Positions 11,152 through 40,445 of a DNA stretch of 64,000 nt are shown piece after piece. The DNA lies in contig NZ_BBJP01000013.1 of assembly GCF_000739595.1 (NCBI RefSeq), positions 124,001 through 188,000 of the forward strand, read 5' to 3'. A program made the translations under genes and the position numbers. The notes beneath the pieces were generated by a model. It saw only the letters and a program-made list of their open reading frames with translations, was not told where the DNA came from and did not search any database. Origin of the DNA: Halorubrum halophilum. Lineage in GTDB: Archaea > Halobacteriota > Halobacteria > Halobacteriales > Haloferacaceae. Within the stretch, counting starts at the first letter, position 1. Each line of letters begins with the position of its first letter.

Positions 11152-11262
11152 CCGGAACGCGGTGGGGATCGGAGCGCGGCGCCGACGAGGGAGACGAACA
11201 TATTCGGCACCTCCCGCGGCGAGCCAACAGACACTTATGACCGCCGAAACGACTCCGGGCAC

Positions 11263-11835
11263 ATGTCTGTCCCCGACCAATCGAACCGAACGAGCGGAAT
11301 CGTCGGCGGCGCGGCGGGCGGCGCCGTCGCGTACGTCCTCGGCTATCTGGTCGTGTACGTGACGCAGGGCGACCGGATCGAGGAGGGGCTCTCGGGGATC
11401 AACTTCTTCGCCGACCTGTTCGGCGGCGACCCGATCTCCACGTGGCAGGCCGCGGGGTGGATGTTCTATAACGCCCACTTCGTCGACATCAACGCCCCCT
11501 CGCTGATCGGCGGCGCGCAGTCGGCGAACCTCCTCTCGCAGGGCGAGGGCGGGTCCCTCCTGTTCGTCCTCCCGCCGCTCCTGCTCCTCGTCGCCGGTGT
11601 CGTCGCCGGTCGGGCCGCCGACGCCTCCGACCCGGCCGACGGGGCGCAGGCCGGCGCGTTCGTCCTCGCCGGGTACCTCCCGCTCGCGGTGATCGGGGCG
11701 TTCCTGTTCCGGTTCTCCGTGGGCGACGGAACGGTGGCGCCCGACCTCGTCACCGCCGTGCTGCTCGCCGGCGCCGTCTACCCGGCGGTCTTCGGCGCGA
11801 TCGGCGGGGCCGCCTCGTCGCTGCTGAGCGACTGA
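11263..11835 (+). CDS. Haloarchaeal integral membrane protein of unknown function
   Basis: A 190-residue protein with about five hydrophobic helices: GGAAGGAVAYVLGYLVVYV near the N-terminus, a short one around residue 65, LFVLPPLLLLVAGVVAG, AFVLAGYLPLAVIGAF and AVLLAGAVYPAVFGAIGG. A TATA-like CTTATG lies about 25-30 nt before the ATG. I do not recognise a named domain with certainty. It is convergent with the UPF0201 gene. Confidence 0.7.
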   Translation: MSVPDQSNRTSGIVGGAAGGAVAYVLGYLVVYVTQGDRIEEGLSGINFFADLFGGDPISTWQAAGWMFYNAHFVDINAPSLIGGAQSANLLSQGEGGSLLFVLPPLLLLVAGVVAGRAADASDPADGAQAGAFVLAGYLPLAVIGAFLFRFSVGDGTVAPDLVTAVLLAGAVYPAVFGAIGGAASSLLSD

Positions 11836-36265: not shown

Positions 36266-38554
36266 TCAGTCGTCGTCGAGGACCCCCTCGGCGACGGCCA
36301 TGTCGTCGACGCTCGGGTCGTCGGCGGAGCTCCGCAGGACGAAGCGCTTGCGGATCAGGTCCGCGAAGTAGATCGCGGTCCCGAGGATGAGCAGGGTGTC
36401 GCCCGGGAGCCGCGCCCAGAACAGCGTCTGGACGAGCGACCCCTCGTAGAAGGCGAGGCTGCGCGCCGCGGCGTAGCTCTCCGTGAACGCGACCTCAAGC
36501 TGGAGGAAGCCGACGGGGAGCACCGAGACGAACACCATCAGCGCGAGCCCGACGTTCCACAGCCAGAACGACGCCCGGAGCCACGAGCCGTCCCAGCGCT
36601 CGGGGTCGATCGACAGCTGGAGCATATACGCCACCATCCCGAGCGCGAGGAAGCCGAACGCGCCGAACATCGCGGCGTGGGCGTGCCCCACCGTGAGGTA
36701 GGTGCCGTGCTCGTAGTAGTTGATCAGCGGGAGGTTGATGAAGAAGCCGAGCACCCCGGCGCCGACGAAGTTCCACACCCCGCTGGCGACGATGAACATG
36801 AAGGGGAGCGTGTAGGGGAACCCGCCGGTCTCGGTCATCGCCCGGTACTGTCCGATCGCCTCGTAGAGGATGAAGATCAGCGGGAGCAGCTCCAGCGTCG
36901 AGAAGACGCTCCCGATCGGGACCCAGTAGTCCGGCATCCCGATCCACCAGTAGTGGTGCGAGACGCCGATGACGCCGGTCCCCATCACGAGCAGCGCCTG
37001 CAGCATGACGGCCTTCTCGGCGCTGCGCCGCGTGAGGAGGTTCATCGAGACCAACGTGAGCCCGATGATCGCGACGATGAAGAACTCGAAGGCGCCCTCG
37101 ACCCACATGTGGACGACCCACCACCGCCAGAACTCGGTGACGGCCATGTTCGTCGACGGCGTGAAGAAGAAGCCGGCGATGAACAGCAGCGTGATCGAGC
37201 CGCCCGCGTAGAGGATCATGTGTGCGAGCCCGTACACCGGCTCGCGGTCGAGCAGCGGCTTGAGCCCGCGGATCGCGAGGACCGCCCAGAGGACGAAGCC
37301 GACGAGCAGGCCGCCCTGCCACACCTTCCCGACTTCGAGGTACTCCAGTCCCTCGTTGCCGAGGAGCCACCAGAGCTGGCCGTCGAAGTAGCCGTTCGCG
37401 CCGAGCCAGATGCCGCCCATCCCGCCGACGACGACGGTCACTAACGCGCCGAGCAGGACGTTGACGTACCGCGCCTGATTCTTCGGCTCGTGGCCGGTGA
37501 GGAGGGGCGGGAGGAACAGGCCGGCACCGAGCCACGTCGACGCGATCCAGAGGATGCCCAGGTCGATGTGCCACGTCTTCGCGATCGAGAAGGGGAGCAA
37601 CTGGAGGATGTGGATTCCGAACACCTCCTCGATCCCGAAGAATCCGGCCCGTTCGATGTAGAAGTGAGCCAACAAGCCCCCGAGCAACACCTGTGCCAAG
37701 AACAGTCCGGCGGCGATGGGAATGAACCGGAGCGCCGCGCGCTGGCTCGGGAAGACGCTCACGTCGCCCGGCTCCGGTACGGCGATCCCCTCCGCCGACG
37801 GCTCCGGGAGCTTCACCGACTTGTAGAGGAGGATCGCCGCGCCCGCCGCGCCGACGAGCAGCACCATCGCGATGACACTCCACGTCATCGCGGCGCCGGT
37901 GGCGTCGTTGCCGGCGGCCGGCGAGGGCGGCCACTCGTTCGTGAAGGAGTTGTCGCCGTCGGGCCGGTCGGTGTGGGAGAACCACGCCGTCCACAGCGCG
38001 AAGTCGGCGAAGTCCTCGGCCTCCTCCGTCGACTCGATCATCTCGACCGGGACGCCCCGGTCGTGGTCGCCCTCGTGGTAGCGCTCGACGTACGTCTCGC
38101 GCACCTGCTCGTGGGCGTACGCCTCCGCGGGGGAGTACCGGACGGTGTCGCTCCCGTCGTGCGCGCCGTCGAGGTCGTCGCGGACGGTCTGGTCGACCGC
38201 CGCGCGCTCCGAGGAGCTGAGCGCGTCGTAGCCGGTACCGTGCTCCTCCTGTGCGTAGTACTCCCGCATGTGTTGGGTCTTCAACTCGAGCGTCTCGGCG
38301 GTGTAGTCCTCGCCGTAGTACGCGCCGTTGCCGAGTATCGACCCGTGGTTCATCAGCCCGTACTGCTGGAACGCCGCCTTCCCGTCTTGGACCGTCTCCC
38401 CGGTGGCGATCGTCTCGCCGTCGGGGCCGACGACCTCGTCGGGGATCGGCGGCGCCTCCTGGTACGCGAACCACGCCCCGGCGCCCATCACGACCAGATT
38501 GAGCAGGAACGCCGCGACGATGACCTTCGCGATCGTCTTGCGTGTAAGCTCCAT
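36266..38554 (-). CDS. norB: Quinol-dependent nitric oxide reductase (qNor)
   Basis: A 762-residue polytopic heme-copper-oxidase-family enzyme reducing NO to N2O at the membrane. The N-terminal extension with a helix and a 200-residue extracytoplasmic domain (PDEVVGPDGETIATGETVQD) marks the quinol type that needs no NorC. Heme and metal histidines lie in THIDLGILW-like AKTWHIDLGILWIASTW, HMWVEGAFEFF, GVSHHYWWIG and VGHAHAAMFGAFGF. Start at 38554 places the first helix right at the N-terminus. A palindrome lies 41-52 nt upstream of it. Confidence 0.94.
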   Translation of the reverse strand: MELTRKTIAKVIVAAFLLNLVVMGAGAWFAYQEAPPIPDEVVGPDGETIATGETVQDGKAAFQQYGLMNHGSILGNGAYYGEDYTAETLELKTQHMREYYAQEEHGTGYDALSSSERAAVDQTVRDDLDGAHDGSDTVRYSPAEAYAHEQVRETYVERYHEGDHDRGVPVEMIESTEEAEDFADFALWTAWFSHTDRPDGDNSFTNEWPPSPAAGNDATGAAMTWSVIAMVLLVGAAGAAILLYKSVKLPEPSAEGIAVPEPGDVSVFPSQRAALRFIPIAAGLFLAQVLLGGLLAHFYIERAGFFGIEEVFGIHILQLLPFSIAKTWHIDLGILWIASTWLGAGLFLPPLLTGHEPKNQARYVNVLLGALVTVVVGGMGGIWLGANGYFDGQLWWLLGNEGLEYLEVGKVWQGGLLVGFVLWAVLAIRGLKPLLDREPVYGLAHMILYAGGSITLLFIAGFFFTPSTNMAVTEFWRWWVVHMWVEGAFEFFIVAIIGLTLVSMNLLTRRSAEKAVMLQALLVMGTGVIGVSHHYWWIGMPDYWVPIGSVFSTLELLPLIFILYEAIGQYRAMTETGGFPYTLPFMFIVASGVWNFVGAGVLGFFINLPLINYYEHGTYLTVGHAHAAMFGAFGFLALGMVAYMLQLSIDPERWDGSWLRASFWLWNVGLALMVFVSVLPVGFLQLEVAFTESYAAARSLAFYEGSLVQTLFWARLPGDTLLILGTAIYFADLIRKRFVLRSSADDPSVDDMAVAEGVLDDD

Positions 38555-38594
38555 CAGGTGGGCGTTGCCCCTAGACGGACTATCAGTTTGCCGG

Positions 38595-38606
38595 CAACAT
38601 GTTCGG
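38595..38606 (-). promoter_or_regulatory. Palindrome-like operator upstream of norB
   Basis: Reads CAACATGTTCGG; the right half CATGTTCG equals the perfect palindrome at 38684-38699 and the left half is degenerate. It is 41-52 nt before the norB ATG. Confidence 0.5.
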
Positions 38607-38683
38607 ACGGCGTTCCCGGCAACTGACACCGCCAGTCGCAGTCGCGAGCGCTACGGGCCGAGGCCGACCGCGAGAGCCGAAGT

Positions 38684-38699
38684 CACGAACATGTTCGTG
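38684..38699 (+). promoter_or_regulatory. Perfect 16-bp palindromic operator upstream of the MoaD-like gene
   Basis: CACGAACATGTTCGTG is a perfect inverted repeat 37-52 nt before the ATG at 38736. It resembles the CGAAC-spacer-GTTCG sites that I recall for the haloarchaeal denitrification regulator NarO, though with a 2-nt spacer here. Confidence 0.6.
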
Positions 38700-38735
38700 C
38701 GGTGGCTTACCGGGGAACGTCGCGTACGAATGGGT

Positions 38736-39170
38736 ATGCCATCGACTACCGAGGCCGCGGCGCCGGAGTCGGAGTCCGAGAGCGTGACGGAGTCCGCGAA
38801 CGCTGCGGAGACGACGGTCACGGTGCGGTGTACCGGCCACGTCCGCACGGAGCTCGGGGAGTACGAGTTCGAGTACACGTTCGAGGGGGACACCCTCCGC
38901 GAGTTCCTCGACGAGCTGTTTGAGGAGTACCCGGAGCTACAGGAGATGCTGATCGCGGAGAGCGAGGCGGAGGCGACCCACAGCGGCTGGGCGCCGACGC
39001 CCGAGGAGCTTCCGGGGACGTGGACGAAGAACCCGGTCGGCGAGCAGACGATCGCGTACGCCCGGATCCTCGTGAACGGTCACTTCAACGAGAACGAGAA
39101 GGGATTCGACACCGAACTGGAGGAGGGCGACCGGGTCGCGCTGGTGTACCCGTTTATGTTCTGCTGTTAG
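38736..39170 (+). CDS. MoaD/ThiS-like beta-grasp protein of the denitrification locus
   Basis: A 144-residue protein; the ATG two codons upstream at 38730 is an alternative. An acidic N-terminal 30 residues are followed by a beta-grasp domain: VTVRCTGHVRTELGEYEFEY, then TLREFLDELFEEYPELQEML and AYARILVNGHFN. Canonical MoaD or SAMP proteins end in Gly-Gly; this one ends YPFMFCC with two cysteines, so it cannot be a standard sulfur carrier or protein modifier. Divergent from norB, both with the same palindrome type, which suggests a role with nitric oxide reductase. Confidence 0.78.
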   Translation: MPSTTEAAAPESESESVTESANAAETTVTVRCTGHVRTELGEYEFEYTFEGDTLREFLDELFEEYPELQEMLIAESEAEATHSGWAPTPEELPGTWTKNPVGEQTIAYARILVNGHFNENEKGFDTELEEGDRVALVYPFMFCC

Positions 39171-39218: not shown

Positions 39219-40415
39219 TTAGGCCTCGTAGCCCGCCAGGTCCATCACGGAGGCGAACTGCTCGGTGTCCATCACGCTCTCGTACACCATCCCGCCGATC
39301 ATGCCGCCGGGGTAGGCGTCGCCGTTCATCGCGTGGTTCACCTTGTGGCAGTGGAGCGCGTAGACGCCCGGGTCGGCGTCGGCGGTGAACTCGATCGTCT
39401 TGCGCTCGGCGGGCGCGAGAGGGACCACGTCCTCGCGGTGTCGAGCGGCCTCGGGGATGACGCCCCCGTCTTTCTCGACCACGGTGAAGCCGTGGTTGTG
39501 CGTGTGCATCGCGTGCGACTCGTAGCCGGCGTTGACGTAGTGGATCCGAACCGAATCACCCTCCTGGAGGATCAGGGGGGAGCCCTCTTCGGGGTGGAAG
39601 CTGTACGGCGCCGACCGCCCGTTGATGGTGAACGCGTCCGGGTTGCGATCGCGGTGGCTGAAGTCCACGTCGCCGCCGGCCATCGAGGCGGACAGGCGAG
39701 TGTCCCAGTCTTTGATCGTCCTGAAGACCTCTTGGTCCGCGGGCTCGTACCCCTCAGGATCGACCCGAAGAATGCCGTACATCCCCATATCGAGATGATT
39801 CTGGGTCTGGTAGTGGCAGTGGTAGAGGTGGGTTCCCGGCTGGTTCGCCGTGATCTCGTAGGTGTGCTCCTCGCCCGGCGCGACCTGCCGGCCCGTCGTC
39901 GTCGGGACGCCGTCGTCCATCCAGTCCTTGCGAAGCCCGTGGACGTGGAACGTGTGCGGGCGGTTGTGCTCCGAGTTGTCGTAGGTGATCTCCAGTTCGG
40001 TTCCCTCAGTGACTCGGAGTAGGGGGCCGGGGACGCTCGGGTCCGTGTCAGGCGTCTGCCACGCCCAGACCTCGGGCAGCTCCCACGGGCCGCCGCGCGT
40101 GTCCTCCCCGAGTAACTGGTGGCGACACGGGGTCGTGGACACCGTGATCTGCCCATCCCGCTCGTCGAGGTCGATCGTCGTCCGCGGGGACGTGTACGGG
40201 TGGTCGGTCTCGACGCCCGTGGAGTCGCTTCCGGACCACTCCTCGACCTGCTCGGCCGCTTCCCCGCTGGTGGCCGCGTTCTCCGCGCCCGTTCCGGCGT
40301 CCGCGCGCGGGGCGCCGCACCCCGCGAGCCCGACGGTGCCGAGCGCCGCGGCCGCCGAGAGGAACCCGCGTCTGGAAGCCGTGCGTCGACCGGTGTCGTC
40401 GCCGTCTCTCGTCAT
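39219..40415 (-). CDS. Two-domain multicopper oxidase, candidate copper nitrite reductase
   Basis: A 398-residue Tat-exported lipoprotein: SRRGFLSAAAALGTVGLAGC is a twin-arginine signal with lipobox Cys33. Two cupredoxin domains follow. Domain 1 has FHVHG (His157, His159) and YHCHYQTQNHLDMGM (Cys200, His207, Met210/212). Domain 2 has HTHNH (304-308) and LHCHKVNHAMNG (Cys356). Both domains thus carry HCH copper signatures, more like a type A two-domain laccase than classical NirK, whose second domain lacks a type 1 Cys. The norB neighbourhood argues for a denitrification role. Function not proven. Confidence 0.75.
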   Translation of the reverse strand: MTRDGDDTGRRTASRRGFLSAAAALGTVGLAGCGAPRADAGTGAENAATSGEAAEQVEEWSGSDSTGVETDHPYTSPRTTIDLDERDGQITVSTTPCRHQLLGEDTRGGPWELPEVWAWQTPDTDPSVPGPLLRVTEGTELEITYDNSEHNRPHTFHVHGLRKDWMDDGVPTTTGRQVAPGEEHTYEITANQPGTHLYHCHYQTQNHLDMGMYGILRVDPEGYEPADQEVFRTIKDWDTRLSASMAGGDVDFSHRDRNPDAFTINGRSAPYSFHPEEGSPLILQEGDSVRIHYVNAGYESHAMHTHNHGFTVVEKDGGVIPEAARHREDVVPLAPAERKTIEFTADADPGVYALHCHKVNHAMNGDAYPGGMIGGMVYESVMDTEQFASVMDLAGYEA

Positions 40416-40417
40416 GT

Positions 40418-40445
40418 CCGAACATGAACGGTGATCCCATATAAA
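40418..40445 (-). promoter_or_regulatory. Promoter and palindrome of the multicopper oxidase gene
   Basis: A TATA box TTTATAT (40439-40445, minus strand) lies 24 nt before the ATG at 40415, so the message should be leaderless. Between them is GTTCATGTTCGG (complement of 40418-40431), an imperfect version of the norB-region palindrome sitting over the predicted transcription start. Confidence 0.5.

Follow-up and report, generated by a model that had tools for sequence, protein, structure and literature searches.

Palindromes between norB and a ubiquitin-like gene of Halorubrum halophilum as putative operators of the haloarchaeal denitrification regulon

In the genome of Halorubrum halophilum, a nitric oxide reductase gene (norB) and a gene for a MoaD-like protein (moaD-CC) are arranged divergently, and each is preceded by a palindromic sequence. 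This locus raises the question of which regulon these sequences serve, which regulator binds them, and whether the MoaD-like gene belongs to that regulon in its own right. The window analysed comprises the whole stretch of 64,000 nt from contig NZ_BBJP01000013.1 (assembly GCF_000739595.1, positions 124,001 to 188,000). The initial annotation had described a perfect 16-bp palindrome upstream of the MoaD-like gene and a second palindrome, CAACATGTTCGG (38595-38606), located 41-52 nt before the norB ATG (38554), both in mirror-image placement. Sequences and distances were reproduced, and the mirror-image arrangement holds, with gaps of 39 nt on the norB side and 38 nt between the 12-bp core and the moaD-CC ATG (Table 1). 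Measured from the right edge of the full 16-mer, the latter distance is 37 nt; alternatively, moaD-CC may start at an in-frame ATG at 38730. The outer CA...TG of the 16-mer varies among Halorubrum, while the 12-bp core is kept. In the norB-side copy, the right half is degenerate, GTTGC replacing GTTCG.

Table 1 Features of the norB/moaD-CC region (coordinates refer to the window)
Feature	Position	Strand	Remarks
norB, quinol-type nitric oxide reductase	36266..38554	-	762 aa; NorB cytochrome c-like and COX1 domains
TATA-like element of norB, TGATAG	38580..38585	-	+9 to +14 from norB-side site
norB-side copy CGAACATGTTGC	38594..38605	-	gap of 39 nt to norB ATG 38554
MoaD-side palindrome CACGAACATGTTCGTG	38684-38699	.	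perfect, 16 bp
Putative operator core of moaD-CC promoter, CGAACATGTTCG	38686-38697		12 bp; conserved
TATA-like element of moaD-CC, CTTACC	38706..38711	+	TTA at +10..+12 from site
moaD-CC	38736..39170	+	Pfam ThiS; C-terminus PFMFCC, not GG
Multicopper oxidase, TAT-type	39219..40415	-	adjoins moaD-CC
Third, imperfect copy CGTTCATGTTCG	40419..40430	-	ends 3 nt before multicopper oxidase ATG; conserved in 5 Halorubrum

The motif itself is already known, as it equals the published haloarchaeal denitrification element. In Haloferax volcanii, the element CGAA-X4-TTCG is described at denitrification genes and ahbD, and it is essential for anaerobic activity of the nirK promoter (Hattori et al. 2016, as quoted in PMC5746218). 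The initial annotation had seen a spacing difference between the palindromes and the NarO element (2 instead of 4 nt), but this discrepancy vanishes because CGAA-X4-TTCG and CGAAC-N2-GTTCG are the same sequence, counted once with 4-base and once with 5-base half-sites. In Hfx. mediterranei, a semi-palindromic motif CGAAYATDKTYG was reported, with the norp and nosp sites reading exactly CGAACATGTTCG, the former 66 nt before the ATG, and point mutations reducing anaerobic activity (PMC10062603). RNA-seq of this species listed 25 differentially expressed promoter regions carrying the motif, while the regulator was called undisclosed (PMC11218638). The MoaD-side site at 38686-38697 matches the consensus in full and is identical to the published Haloferax motif, which agrees with the denitrification-type operator proposed initially; the norB copy is off at its last two bases. 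Within the source genome, the motif is present at the denitrification promoters of norB, the nirK cluster and a halocyanin/DUF2249 cluster, and it is conserved in orthologous promoters. The exact core has only two copies in 3.68 Mb, one in the norB/moaD-CC region and the other just downstream of the nirK gene on contig C103. Less exact sites of this genome precede a DtxR-type regulator in the nirK cluster, DUF2249 genes and a COX1-like gene, several of them at 38-40 nt.

Conservation was assessed with 80 named haloarchaeal norB loci. The sites are kept in front of norB in other Halorubrum genomes, the point on which the earlier proposal had been made to depend. Allowing up to 2 mismatches, most genera (47 loci) carry a site 64-68 nt before the homologous norB ATG, including Haloferax with its site at 66 nt as published for norp, and 16 loci, 14 of them from Halorubrum, have it at 38-42 nt; some of the 80 loci display no recognisable site. 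In the 64-68-nt class, the motif is followed by a GGGAAC-like half-site and then by a TATA-like stretch, whereas the TATA-like element of the Halorubrum class comes directly after the full site, and the A+T content of the Halorubrum norB set peaks at +11..+13 from the site. Likewise, A+T fractions of 0.75, 0.79 and 0.99 are reached at +10, +11 and +12 in 72 moaD-CC promoters. Almost every Halorubrum that has a divergent moaD carries the degenerate CGAACATGTTGC at norB. Two peculiarities were encountered in this set. One Halorubrum genome (G038, locus L136) carries a norB with an in-frame TAG, a moaD-CC product ending in FCR and a best regulator match that is partial, and its regulon may be decaying although the operator is intact. 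Upstream of norB in Halorubrum distributum JCM 10118 (L035), the sequence CTGTCTCTTATACACA...TGTGTATAAGAGACA with an N resembles a Nextera transposon adaptor and is probably an assembly artefact.

Taken as a whole, the palindromes are most probably operators of the known haloarchaeal anaerobic or denitrification regulon, at which a dimeric helix-turn-helix activator recognising CGAAC-N2-GTTCG turns on both norB and the divergent moaD-CC gene. According to this model, the activator would contact both CGAAC halves of a site, immediately before the TATA box, at two divergent promoters that are probably leaderless. Under low oxygen and in the presence of N-oxides, it would recruit the basal machinery and thereby switch on norB in one direction and the arCOG00539-type moaD-CC gene in the other. 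The binder might belong to a short HTH_10 (Bat-like) family whose own promoters contain the motif. Activation as such has been demonstrated in Haloferax, where anaerobic nirK activity requires the motif and nos and nor activity is raised by it (PMC5746218, PMC10062603); we infer the same activation for the Halorubrum genome.

The divergent partner of norB deserves closer description. Its predicted AlphaFold core matches SAMP1, HVO_2177 and MoaD and thus a beta-grasp fold, with a low-confidence insertion at residues 75-108. The C-terminal diglycine is absent: intact members of the family end in C-C or in C-L/V/Y/R, and C143 is invariant in an alignment of 34 sequences. The family arCOG00539 has been described as comprising beta-grasp proteins of halobacteria that end in CC (PMC2948915), and going by this description, the protein is presumably of the arCOG00539 type. 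The available text of PMC2948915 makes no mention of a link between this family and the denitrification regulon. Among 392 genomes of the order, 228 contain relatives, and 72 out of 77 moaD-CC loci have the motif upstream with at most 1 mismatch; in 54 of these 72 promoters, the gap to the start codon is exactly 38 nt. In loci L141-L179, where norB is usually not a neighbour, such a site is kept at 35 of 39. At 12 of 40 loci, among them L148, L165, L171 and L175, the surroundings of moaD-CC encode radical SAM or pseudo-SAM/SPASM proteins (TIGR04347, TIGR04053) with a relationship to the heme enzymes AhbC/AhbD.

Could the motif be an operator with a broader role in low-oxygen or N-oxide stress, with denitrification being one branch and several paralogous HTH_10 proteins acting as binders? 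This possibility is to be taken seriously, with a slight lean against it on our part. Sites precede moaD-CC in eight genomes in which norB was not detected (G005, G007, G033, G044, G050, G121, G129 and G175), and moaD-CC occurs with norB in 151 of the 392 genomes and without it in 77, as compared to 46 with norB only and 118 with neither, a co-occurrence above expectation with a raw odds ratio of 5 that is not corrected for phylogeny. At least two HTH_10 family members are present in the source genome, and further sites in this genome precede DUF2249 genes, a GlutR_dimer gene and regulators. On the other hand, denitrification genes are the only ones covered by published induction work. Other sites were found besides these. 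For the multicopper oxidase next to moaD-CC, the related gene of Haloferax and Halobellus is preceded by a full site at about 63 nt. The intergenic sequence CGAACATATTCG (11195-11206) is located 56 nt before a gene starting at 11263 (190 aa), which is possibly another regulon member. Two one-mismatch sites lie just upstream of the DtxR-type regulator (Fe_dep_repress, L003:10081-10587), and in the Hfx. mediterranei RNA-seq data the most induced regulator was a DtxR/SirR protein (PMC11218638).

Regarding the binder within the proposed denitrification regulon, the short HTH_10 (Bat-like) family appears to be a better candidate than NarO. In the source genome, this family has at least two members, one in the nirK cluster (C103) and one in the halocyanin/DUF2249 cluster (C76), both clusters bearing the motif. 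The promoters of the family itself contain the site at 31 of 40 loci, with 38 nt as a frequent distance, and at all 4 further loci inspected; additionally, the family adjoins moaD-CC in 12 genomes at a distance of 43-130 nt (11 downstream on the same strand, 1 divergent). Own promoter sites and linkage to moaD-CC make the family a candidate binder, evidence that is suggestive rather than proof. When the 400 nt before each ORF start were considered, a site was found for the C103 gene alone among the 20 HTH_10 genes of the source genome, and this site stands some 390 nt ahead of the likely start. No site immediately precedes the C76 copy, and on C101 a different HTH_10 gene has one at roughly 160 nt from the likely start. 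Co-occurrence of regulator and motif is likewise imperfect. Only partial, split or stop-bearing regulator copies or weak matches are found in G147, G360, G014 and G038, the last two of which keep perfect sites, and G408 has neither regulator nor motif. The correlation is suggestive but not clean, since G403, without a family member, retains a weak site with 2 mismatches. Regulator matches in one genus with a TGA inside were considered as broken genes and rejected as such: the TGA is the natural stop, and the match runs past it.

Denitrification in Hfx. volcanii is under the control of NarO, a DmsR_N/HTH_10-type protein whose N-terminal part is rich in Cys, and the study of this control also described the motif (PMC5746218). 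Moreover, a DmsR_N/HTH_10 gene of the source genome, likewise Cys-rich in its N-terminal part (L009:5880-6653), is located some 4 kb away from the DUF2249 motif cluster. Binding of the sites by NarO nevertheless seems unlikely. Hfx. mediterranei has functional motifs in nosp and norp, yet no NarO homologue was found in this species (PMC10062603), so that NarO generally fits the motif poorly. In addition, no site precedes the DmsR/NarO-type gene of the source genome itself, no DmsR-type gene is found among the recurrent moaD-CC neighbours, and it is a different HTH_10 family that is tied to the motif. We are evenly divided on a more specific proposal, in which the undisclosed regulator is this autoregulated short HTH_10 family, often paired with moaD-CC, and arCOG00539 belongs to the ancestral core of the regulon, functioning also where denitrification is missing.

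A palindrome serving norB only, with its nearness to the MoaD-like gene being incidental, is very improbable. The motif was indeed published as a denitrification element, and moaD-CC adjoins norB in Halorubrum, but norB has a separate copy, and the 38-nt gap to moaD-CC is constant in other genera without norB nearby. The persistence of the site in the eight genomes without detected norB points in the same direction, as do the Halorubrum norB loci lacking a divergent moaD (L028, L034, L062), which carry CGAACATGTTGG and have no second site. Hence, the site follows moaD-CC independently of norB.

That the sites are mere chance palindromes in GC-rich DNA is virtually out of the question, for although the window contains nine perfect 16-bp palindromes, with dinucleotide shuffles averaging 5.65, sequence, spacing and position are conserved over dozens of genera. 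Because such 16-mers are common in the window, the palindrome alone carries little weight, and a tally of perfect palindromes was dropped as evidence. The pattern CGAACNNGTTCG with at most 1 mismatch has 16 matches in the window compared to 8.6 expected, a number reached in none of 100 shuffles. Of the two spacings for which a scan had been suggested initially, N2 is thus in excess in the window, while the N4-spaced pattern is at chance level. Exact CGAAC-N2-GTTCG is present upstream of norB at 42 of 80 loci, of moaD-CC at 59 of 77 and of the HTH_10 family at 25 of 40, against shuffle expectations of 0.01-0.03 (0.03 for norB); spacers of 0, 1 and 3-8 nt gave no enrichment upstream of these three gene groups. 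Conservation across genera marks the site as functional sequence, and it is this conservation, not the palindrome itself, that makes the case for a putative operator.

Reading the palindromes as operators of the denitrification regulon has two consequences. It provides a candidate for the regulator called undisclosed in the Hfx. mediterranei papers, and it places a conserved, little-studied ubiquitin-like family ending in CC instead of GG in the regulon of haloarchaeal anaerobic respiration. Less expected than the motif is its fixed place, across haloarchaea, before the ubiquitin-like gene and one regulator family. Both proposals are directly testable in Haloferax.

Compared to known systems, the locus shows both agreement and deviation. 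In Hfx. volcanii, CGAA-X4-TTCG is the same sequence written with 4-base halves, and the binder is discussed there as NarO (PMC5746218). With Hfx. mediterranei, the locus shares a full match to CGAAYATDKTYG that equals the norp and nosp sites, likewise placed in front of norB and related genes, whereas the Halorubrum norB site has a degenerate right half, is located 39 nt rather than 66 nt before the ATG and abuts the TATA-like element. The nirK-nor cluster of Hfx. mediterranei also encodes a bacterioopsin-activator-like regulator, E6P09_00735 (PMC11218638), which, going by its description, resembles the HTH_10 family in being short, Bat-like and part of a motif-bearing denitrification cluster. 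Finally, the MoaD-like product has the beta-grasp and the CC end in common with arCOG00539 as described, and it shares the beta-grasp with canonical MoaD and SAMP proteins, their C-terminal diglycine being replaced.
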